Shown one piece after another: positions 35,251-54,893 of a stretch of 64,000 nt of DNA (position 1 is the stretch's first letter; every line of letters starts with the position of its first letter). The stretch comes from Alphaproteobacteria bacterium (lineage in GTDB: Bacteria; Pseudomonadota; Alphaproteobacteria; SMXQ01), in the NCBI GenBank assembly GCA_030831315.1, contig JAURLI010000065.1, positions 42,298-106,297 of the forward strand, read 5' to 3'. Position numbers and translations under genes: made by a program. Under the pieces are notes generated by a model. That model was not told where the DNA came from. It saw only the letters and a list, made by a program, of their open reading frames with translations, and made no database searches.

Positions 35251-35344
35251 GGAAGGCTGGCGGTGGACGAGCGCCCCGCCAACCCGGTCAGGTCCGGAAG
35301 GAAGCAGCCGTAACGGGTCTTGCCCGGGTCATTGTCAGTCTTCC
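35251..35344 (+). ncRNA. ffs: Bacterial small signal recognition particle RNA (4.5S)
   Basis: GGTCAGGTCCGGAAGGAAGCAGCC apical core; terminal GGAAGGCTG...CAGTCTTCC pairing; immediately upstream of dnaX. Confidence 0.95.
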
Positions 35345-35415
35345 ACCCGCCCGCGTTGCTACCGACGCGTTTTCACCCGAGAGGAGCCCTCGGCCGTCCG
35401 GCCCGCGATCGCGCC

Positions 35416-52071: not shown

Positions 52072-53025
52072 ATGGCGCTTCGCGTCGTCTTCATGGGCAC
52101 GCCCGATTTCGCGGCCAAGGCGCTCGCCGCCATCATCGCGAGCCCGCACGAGGCCGTGGCCGTCTATACCCAGCCGCCGCGCCCCGCCGGCCGCGGCCAG
52201 CAGGAACGCCGCTCGGCCGTCCATGAACTGGCCGCCCGCCACGCCATCCCCGTCCATTGCCCGGCCAGCCTGAAAGGCGAGGACGCCCAGGCCGATTTCG
52301 CCGCCGTGGTGAAGGAGGCCCGCGCCGATATCGCCGTGGTCGCGGCCTACGGGCTGATCCTGCCCAAGGCGGTGCTGGAGACCCCGCGCCTTGGCTGCGT
52401 CAACATTCATGCCTCGCTGCTGCCGCGCTGGCGGGGTGCCGCGCCCATCCAGCGCGCCATCCTCGAAGGCGACCGCGAGACGGGCATCACCATCATGCAG
52501 ATGGACGAAGGGCTCGATACCGGCCCGGCGCTCTGCCGCGAATCCATTGCCCTCGGCCCCGCCGTCACCTGCGAGGAAGTCCACGACCGCCTGGCCGTCC
52601 TTGGCGGGCGGATGATCGTCTATGCGCTGAACGGGCTGGAGGCGGGCATCCTTTCCCCCGCGCCGCAGCCGGCCGACGGCGTGACCTATGCCGCGAAGCT
52701 GACCCGCGAGGAAGGCCGCCTCGACTGGTCCCAACCGGCGCGGGCGCTGGAGCGCCGGGTGCGCGCCTTCACGCCCTGGCCGGGTGCGTGGTTCGAACAT
52801 GCCGGCACGCGCATCAAGGTGCTGGAGGCACAGGTCATGGGCAATATCGTCGGCGCCGCACCGGGCGACGTGGTGGACGACCGCCTGACGGTGGCCTGCG
52901 CGGACTCCACCTTGCGCCTCCTGCGCGTGCAGCGCGAAGGCAAGCAGGCGCAACCGGCGGCGGAATTCCTGCGCGGCTTCGCGCTGCCTAAGGGCACGCG
53001 GCTCGGCTCCGGGGAGGCCCCGTGA
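52072..53025 (+). CDS. fmt: Methionyl-tRNA formyltransferase
   Basis: [60 protein letters not shown]. Confidence 0.96.
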
Positions 53026-53765
53026 CCCGCTATCGCCTTGTCGTCGAATACGACGGCGGTCCCTTCGTCGGCTGGCAGCGCCAGGACAACGGGCCCTCGG
53101 TGCAGGGCGCGCTGGAAGACGCGGTGTTTTCCTTCTGCGCCGAACGCGTCAACGTGTTCGGCGCCGGGCGCACCGATTCGGGCGTTCATGCGCTGGGCCA
53201 GGTGGCGCATTTCGATATTGCCGGCGACAAGCCCGCCGATACCGTGCGCGATGCGGTCAACTACTACCTGCGCCAGCAGGGCGCGCCGGTGTCGGTGGTG
53301 ACGGCGGAGGTTGCGGCGGAGGATTTCCACGCGCGGTTCTCCGCGACCGACCGGCGCTACCTCTATCGCATCCTCAACCGGCGCTCGCCGCCCGCACTCG
53401 ATCGCGGCCGGGTCTGGCACGTGATCGCGCCGCTCGATGCCACGGCCATGCATGCCGCCGCCCAGGCGTTGATCGGCCGCCACGACTTCAGCTCTTTCCG
53501 CGCCGCCGCCTGCCAGGCCGACAGCCCGGTCAAGACGCTGGACGAGGCGCGGGTGGAACGGGTGGGCGACGAAGTGCGCCTGCATTTCCGGGCGCGCTCC
53601 TTCCTGCACAGCCAGGTGCGCATCATGGCCGGCACGCTGCGCACCGTGGGCGAGGGCAAGTGGGGCGTGGCCGAGGTTGCCGCCGCCCTTGCCGCCCGTG
53701 ACCGCGCCGCCGCCGGGCCGACGGCGCCGCCCGACGGGCTTTACCTGGTGGCGGTCGGCTACTAG
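53022..53765 (+). CDS. truA: tRNA pseudouridine(38-40) synthase
   Basis: [47 protein letters not shown]. Confidence 0.96.
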
Positions 53766-53795
53766 CAATCCTCAAGAAATGCGTATTTATGTATG

Positions 53796-53820
53796 AACGC
53801 GCCAAAACGGCGCGTTTTTT
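53796..53820 (+). terminator. Rho-independent terminator after truA
   Basis: AACGCGCC-aaaac-GGCGCGTT followed by TTTT. Confidence 0.92.
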
Positions 53821-53845: not shown

Positions 53846-53877
53846 CCTATCTACAATGTATATACATTGTAGATAGG
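53846..53877. promoter_or_regulatory. Perfect 32-bp palindrome, candidate operator or RBS-sequestering hairpin
   Basis: CCTATCTACAATGTATATACATTGTAGATAGG equals its own reverse complement; ends 7 bp before ATG 53885. Confidence 0.75.
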
Positions 53878-53884
53878 CGATCCC

Positions 53885-54328
53885 ATGGACATCAGCCACG
53901 CCGACGGCCGCATCACCGTCAGTTTCACCCTGACCGTTGCCGAATTTGCCCGCGCCCTTGCCGATGGCGAGCTGCGGGTGGCGCTGGGGGCGGGCACCGG
54001 GGCGGGCGGCGCGCCCGGCATCGGTGCCGCGGCGGTCGCGGCCGTCTGCGGCGCCTACGGTCCCGAAAGCCTCGGCGCCAACCTGCTGTGGGAAATCGCC
54101 CAGGCGGGCGATGACGGTATCGGCGCGGGCACGCTGAAGGATATCCTCGGCCTTTCGACCTCGAAACAGCTGGCGGGCGCCTTCTCGGGCCTCGCCAAGG
54201 TGCTGGCGCGGGAATTGCCGGGGGCGGCGGCGGGGTTCATCGGGCGCGACTGGCAGAGCCGCGAGGGCGAATACCGCTACCGCATGGCGGCAGGGGTGCG
54301 CGAGATGGTGATCGCGGCGCTGTCGTGA
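53885..54328 (+). CDS. Uncharacterised 147-aa protein, possible winged-HTH-like C-terminal half
   Basis: Own terminator-palindrome-ATG context; TLKDILGLSTSKQLAGAFSGLAKVLARE is HTH-like; no family recognised. Confidence 0.65.
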   Translation: MDISHADGRITVSFTLTVAEFARALADGELRVALGAGTGAGGAPGIGAAAVAAVCGAYGPESLGANLLWEIAQAGDDGIGAGTLKDILGLSTSKQLAGAFSGLAKVLARELPGAAAGFIGRDWQSREGEYRYRMAAGVREMVIAALS

Positions 54329-54329
54329 A

Positions 54330-54893
54330 CTACAGCAGAAGCGAGCGCGCCCACAGCGACACGATCACGCCGAGCGTCAGGTTGACCATGGTGACCATCA
54401 TCGCCTCGCCCCAGTTGGCGCCGAGCGCCATGCGCGTGACGTTCCACACATAGGCCAGCACGCCGACGAAGATGGCGACGGGGATGAGCGCGAGCACGCT
54501 GCCCGGCGCCTGCGCCGCGATCACGGTTGCAGGCAGCATGATGATGGCGATCAGCACCTTCGCCCAGTTGAGCGCGACGATGAGGCGCGTATAGCGCTCG
54601 CTCTTGTTCAGCCATTGGCAGACATAGATGGCGGCAAGCGGGAAGGCGAACCAGTCGATGACATAGGCGATGGCCTCGACCACCACGATGCCCTGCCAGT
54701 TGATCTCGCCCTCGAGGTTGGCCATGCCCACGGCGACCAGCGCCGCGTAGGCGGGCAGGGCGAGCATCATGGCGAAGAACGAGCGCCAGAATCCCGCGAT
54801 GGACGTATCGAAGAAGGAAAATCCGCTGGCGTCGCCGTGGCCGAGCCGCCACGCGCCGTAGATGCCGCGCGCGGCTTCCTCGATGCGGCTCAT
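54330..54893 (-). CDS. Integral membrane protein, unknown function
   Basis: 187 aa, multiple hydrophobic segments; overlaps dapE start/stop fashion. Confidence 0.75.

Follow-up and report, generated by a model that had tools for sequence, protein, structure and literature searches.

A conserved palindrome before an orphan winged-helix gene is a probable autoregulatory operator in an alphaproteobacterial family

Repressors of the BlaI/MecI/CopY group combine a winged helix with TACA...TGTA dyads. Bacterial transcription factors commonly repress their own synthesis, and the comparison of upstream regions across orthologs is an established route to autoregulatory operators (PMC3737563). MarR autorepressors, such as SCO3205 of Streptomyces coelicolor (PMC3737563) and MepR, have palindromic sites before their own gene, with at least two in a control region. 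Even in E. coli, regulators with a single target are described as the smaller part of the transcription factors (PMC8249747).

Here we describe a locus in a 64-kb stretch (the window) of an alphaproteobacterial genome of 2.7 Mb (G000), where a perfect palindrome precedes a gene, called X below, for a predicted winged-helix protein. On the basis of sequence comparisons and structural models, we consider it probable that this palindrome is the DNA operator through which X represses its own promoter. X resembles the MarR autorepressors in size, in its predicted winged helix and in having several palindromic candidate sites before its own gene; it differs from them in its N-terminus, a beta hairpin plus a helix, and in the absence of a divergent target gene beside it. 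The winged helix and TACA...TGTA dyads of BlaI/MecI/CopY repressors also resemble X and its site, but the half-sites are separated by one base here and by two in CopY boxes, and no beta-lactamase, peptidase-sensor or copper gene is adjacent to X. The elements of the locus are the following:

53022 to 53765: truA, upstream of the hairpin, the palindrome and X
53795 to 53817, + strand: terminator-like hairpin 3' of truA, which parts truA from X
53846 to 53877, no strand: perfect 32-bp palindrome, proposed operator region, CCTATCTACAATGTATATACATTGTAGATAGG, exactly self-complementary
53850 to 53862, no strand: putative operator unit A, TCTACAATGTATA, one mismatch against TATACANTGTATA
53852 to 53871, no strand: 20-bp palindromic core, TACAATGTATATACATTGTA, same letters in the congener G001
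53861 to 53873, no strand: putative operator unit B, TATACATTGTAGA, one mismatch
53875 to 53877, + strand: likely Shine-Dalgarno AGG, read from the sequence, inside the right arm and 7 nt from the ATG
53885 to 54328 (stop included), + strand: gene X, 147-aa predicted winged-helix protein, defined by its open reading frame, orthologs, dN/dS and models

The sequence-only reading had described a self-complementary palindrome lying past truA and its terminator, overlapping the likely Shine-Dalgarno and ending 7 bp before ATG 53885, and this description was confirmed; the last three bases of the palindrome are the AGG. Among the other perfect palindromes of the window, the longest has 20 bp. With three mismatches allowed, the inner 30 bp matched a single place (none in 100 shuffles), and the genome-wide search that had been proposed found the 20-bp core in single copy in G000 at the same tolerance. 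Units A and B overlap by 2 bp, with their centres 11 bp apart, approximately one helical turn, and this overlap creates the long palindrome. The outer arms are symmetric in the window genome only, G001 sharing the inner 20 bp alone, so conservation does not extend to the 32-bp length itself. Between these two genomes most of the truA-X gap has diverged and synonymous sites of X are near saturation (dS 1.09), yet the 20-bp core is identical. A sigma-70 promoter was looked for in the gap, 119 bp long in G000, and none was recognised. One viral contig (L067) contains the exact 20-mer in an AT-rich stretch with no X-like gene recognised nearby; this copy is probably unrelated. Elsewhere in the window, a gene for the bacterial small SRP RNA occupies positions 35252-35346 on the + strand (Rfam RF00169, 60 bits).

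X is a real gene under purifying selection, as judged from sequence comparisons: its dN/dS of 0.10-0.30 in three pairs implies both. Orthologs with 48-72% identity are present in five of the ten other genomes of the family, each time directly after truA. Beyond the family X is rare in our samples of 385 genomes of the class and 399 of the phylum; one genome from another family of the class (G147) holds a relative at 39% identity, in the gene order found in the window family: fmt, truA, X, a convergent membrane gene and dapE. Searches against Pfam, NCBIfam and PDB sequences returned no convincing relative, and no Pfam or NCBIfam family claims X; a search of a defence-system library gave no match. 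The convergent neighbour (54330-54893, - strand) encodes a predicted membrane protein of 187 aa with no Pfam match, and is kept between truA/X and dapE in most family genomes examined and in G147. With truA set apart by the terminator-like hairpin and a convergent gene downstream, no gene other than X seems to be controlled from the palindrome region.

The suggestion of autoregulation had been conditional on the 147-aa product being a winged helix-turn-helix protein, and the predicted structures bear this out. A winged helix at approximately residues 63-133, with the beta hairpin and helix before it, is common to two AlphaFold models (mean pLDDT 83.4 and 87.5). Their Foldseek neighbours are MepR/MarR/ArsR-type regulators, with probabilities up to 1.00, weak E-values (0.04 at best) and TM-scores of about 0.4. 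The winged-helix DNA-binding fold that characterizes the MarR family is thus present in X, in predicted models only. MarR proteins dimerise through their N- and C-terminal helices; the models of X are of the monomer. At the curated cut-off the MarR profile left X unmatched, the best E-value, 0.058 to MarR_2, coming from two of the six orthologs, and the BlaI/MecI/CopY profile was not among the matches of X even at an E-value of 10. Because X fails the sequence test for MarR, the likeness we propose is one of working: X most likely acts as a MarR-type autorepressor does, without being a member of that family.

Support for an operator comes from conservation upstream of orthologs, where the mark of an autoregulatory operator, a conserved palindrome, was found in all cases. 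In each of the six family genomes with X, the truA-X gap contains TATACA-N-TGTATA, a palindrome of 13 bp, either exactly or with one mismatch, and the unit nearest the gene starts 23 to 32 bp before the X start codon (six genomes, three genera). In G003 and G007, additional sites precede the first by 77 and 108 bp. Exact ATACANTGTAT occurs once per genome in G001, G003, G006 and G007, before X, and twice in G002, one copy being before X. When up to one mismatch is allowed across whole genomes, both G000 and G001 contain exactly two sites, in every case before X; the counts at the X locus and away from it are two and one in G003, one and two in G006, one and none in G007, and one and three in G002. 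No such site exists in the five family genomes without X. With two mismatches, the gap holds three of four matches in G003 and three of five in G007, and a reversed control pattern gives 7-17 matches per genome. The consensus was derived from these same loci, so that finding it there is in part built in; what is informative is its near-absence elsewhere.

Gene and site also occur or are missing as a pair. In G005 and G008, the convergent membrane gene comes next after truA, no more than about 35 bp away, and both X and the site are missing; in G004 a different gene follows truA, and a search for truA in G009 and G010 did not find it. Across the sampled family genomes, X and the site are present or absent together. 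Taken with the winged-helix models, a motif that is conserved before orthologs and tied to the gene supports the autoregulatory operator that the sequence-only reading had proposed; the sequence half of the refuting outcome named there, a palindrome lacking conservation before orthologs, did not occur.

Few candidates emerged for further targets, and the site counts suggest that X is a local regulator with no strong sites other than its own. Outside the locus, G000 has three matches with up to two mismatches compared with seven for the control pattern, which represents no enrichment. The off-locus one-mismatch sites of G002, G003 and G006 were considered as a regulon and revealed no convincing common target; L035 and L036 are one site, shared by two related genomes. 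The second exact ATACACTGTAT of G002 (L023, 1500-1510) lies between glutamine-synthetase-like and gyrase/topoisomerase B-like genes and may be a further target in that genus. G002 also contains a long AT-rich inverted repeat, GCATCTTATATGCATTGTATATAAGATGC, away from X (L042, about 1490-1530), and a one-mismatch site of G006 (L040, about 1480-1530) is surrounded by TGTGGATAA/TTTTCCACA-type sequences that look like DnaA boxes.

The distant ortholog also bears on the relationship between protein and site. In G147 the truA-X gap has 25% GC and TATACANTGTATA is absent; between the truA stop codon and X there are instead three exact copies of an AT-rich motif, TGCATAAWAATRC, which was picked by eye from the locus and has no exact copy and one single-mismatch copy in the rest of that genome. 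The recognition-helix region of this X differs too. Together, the changed motif and the changed helix region would fit, but given the choice by eye do not establish, the co-evolution of a regulator and its operator.

These observations also bear on whether another transcription factor controls X through the palindrome. Such a factor is conceivable, given that the dyad resembles the sites of several regulator families, for instance the TACA-TGTA dyads of BlaI/CopY-type regulators. However, X would have to be the one strong target of such a factor in both G000 and G001, and the sites of the factor would have to be missing from family genomes that lack X; moreover, the motif is altered where X itself has diverged, in G147. 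We regard this explanation as unlikely.

Quite improbable, in our assessment, is a purely translational role, in which the leader RNA of X folds into a hairpin that hides the ribosome-binding site. The hairpin of the window is strong (-22.6 kcal/mol, z -4.75) with the AGG within its stem, and that of G001 reaches -14.9 kcal/mol (z -2.33), but G002, G003, G006 and G007 keep the DNA motif with leader hairpins of just -2.5 to -6 kcal/mol. The palindrome arms show no co-variation, the letters themselves being conserved; the extra motif copies of G003 and G007 lie far upstream of the X start codon; and an Rfam search gave no match for the leader. Because a strong hairpin is limited to the window genus (G000 and G001), the conserved structure expected of such a switch is missing and the hairpin, which had been offered as the alternative to an operator, is unsupported as a conserved function. 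It may nevertheless add to control in the window genus.

That the palindrome is a mobile-element remnant or recombination site devoid of regulatory function is very improbable: relatives of X occur on plasmids near recombinase and transposase genes, and on a Dino_bin8 contig (L002, 4500-4592) the start of a transposase-like frame (MAKAYSQDLRDRVI, IS630-like) comes right after X and before the contig end, but the distance from site to start codon stays close in six genomes of three genera, the palindrome is single-copy in its genome, and X itself has no homolog among the viral contigs, plasmids and phages searched. The Dino_bin8 MAG was obtained from Centrosaurus fossil bone (PMC8067395).

The plasmid relatives concern the winged-helix part of X. 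It matches uncharacterised hypothetical proteins from plasmids of Sphingobium, Sphingomonas and Paracoccus (alignment A4) with an hhalign probability of 96% and an E-value of 4e-9, over 77 columns at 26% identity; this family was reached only through a weak match in G269. Unlike X, these proteins have an N-terminal part unrelated to it by sequence, and their upstream near-palindromes differ from the X palindrome. Four loci on plasmids of Sphingomonadales and Paracoccus (L068 to L071) encode the family with its conserved AGxMGAFGRR stretch; two lie near a recombinase gene, and one of those is also near a Tn3 transposase. In L068 the near-palindrome TAAATATGCTTAGAAGCATATTGA lies upstream of the winged-helix gene, so operators of this self-directed kind may be more widespread.

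Autorepression by X would proceed as follows. A dimer of X would bind each 13-bp unit, and the two overlapping units, one helical turn apart, would allow two dimers to sit side by side on one face of the DNA. The occupied operator, adjoining the ribosome-binding site, would block transcription of X until some signal relieves the repression. X of G007 would be expected to recognise TATACACTGTATA, and X of G147 its own TGCATAAWAATRC repeats rather than the G000 core.

The arrangement itself is ordinary; what is new is the protein family of X, together with its candidate operator, and that other targets appear to be lacking. More speculatively, and with considerable doubt, we suggest that X represents an undescribed family of orphan winged-helix proteins having their own promoter as sole strong target. 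Such proteins would be kept as self-contained sensors or for a purpose other than ordinary gene regulation, and their operator sequence and recognition helix would evolve in concert from lineage to lineage. The locus provides a specific candidate operator for a winged-helix family that none of the searched libraries names, and a clean case of a gene and an operator that are jointly present or absent. If X truly controls itself alone, the question becomes what purpose a solitary, self-controlled DNA-binding protein serves.
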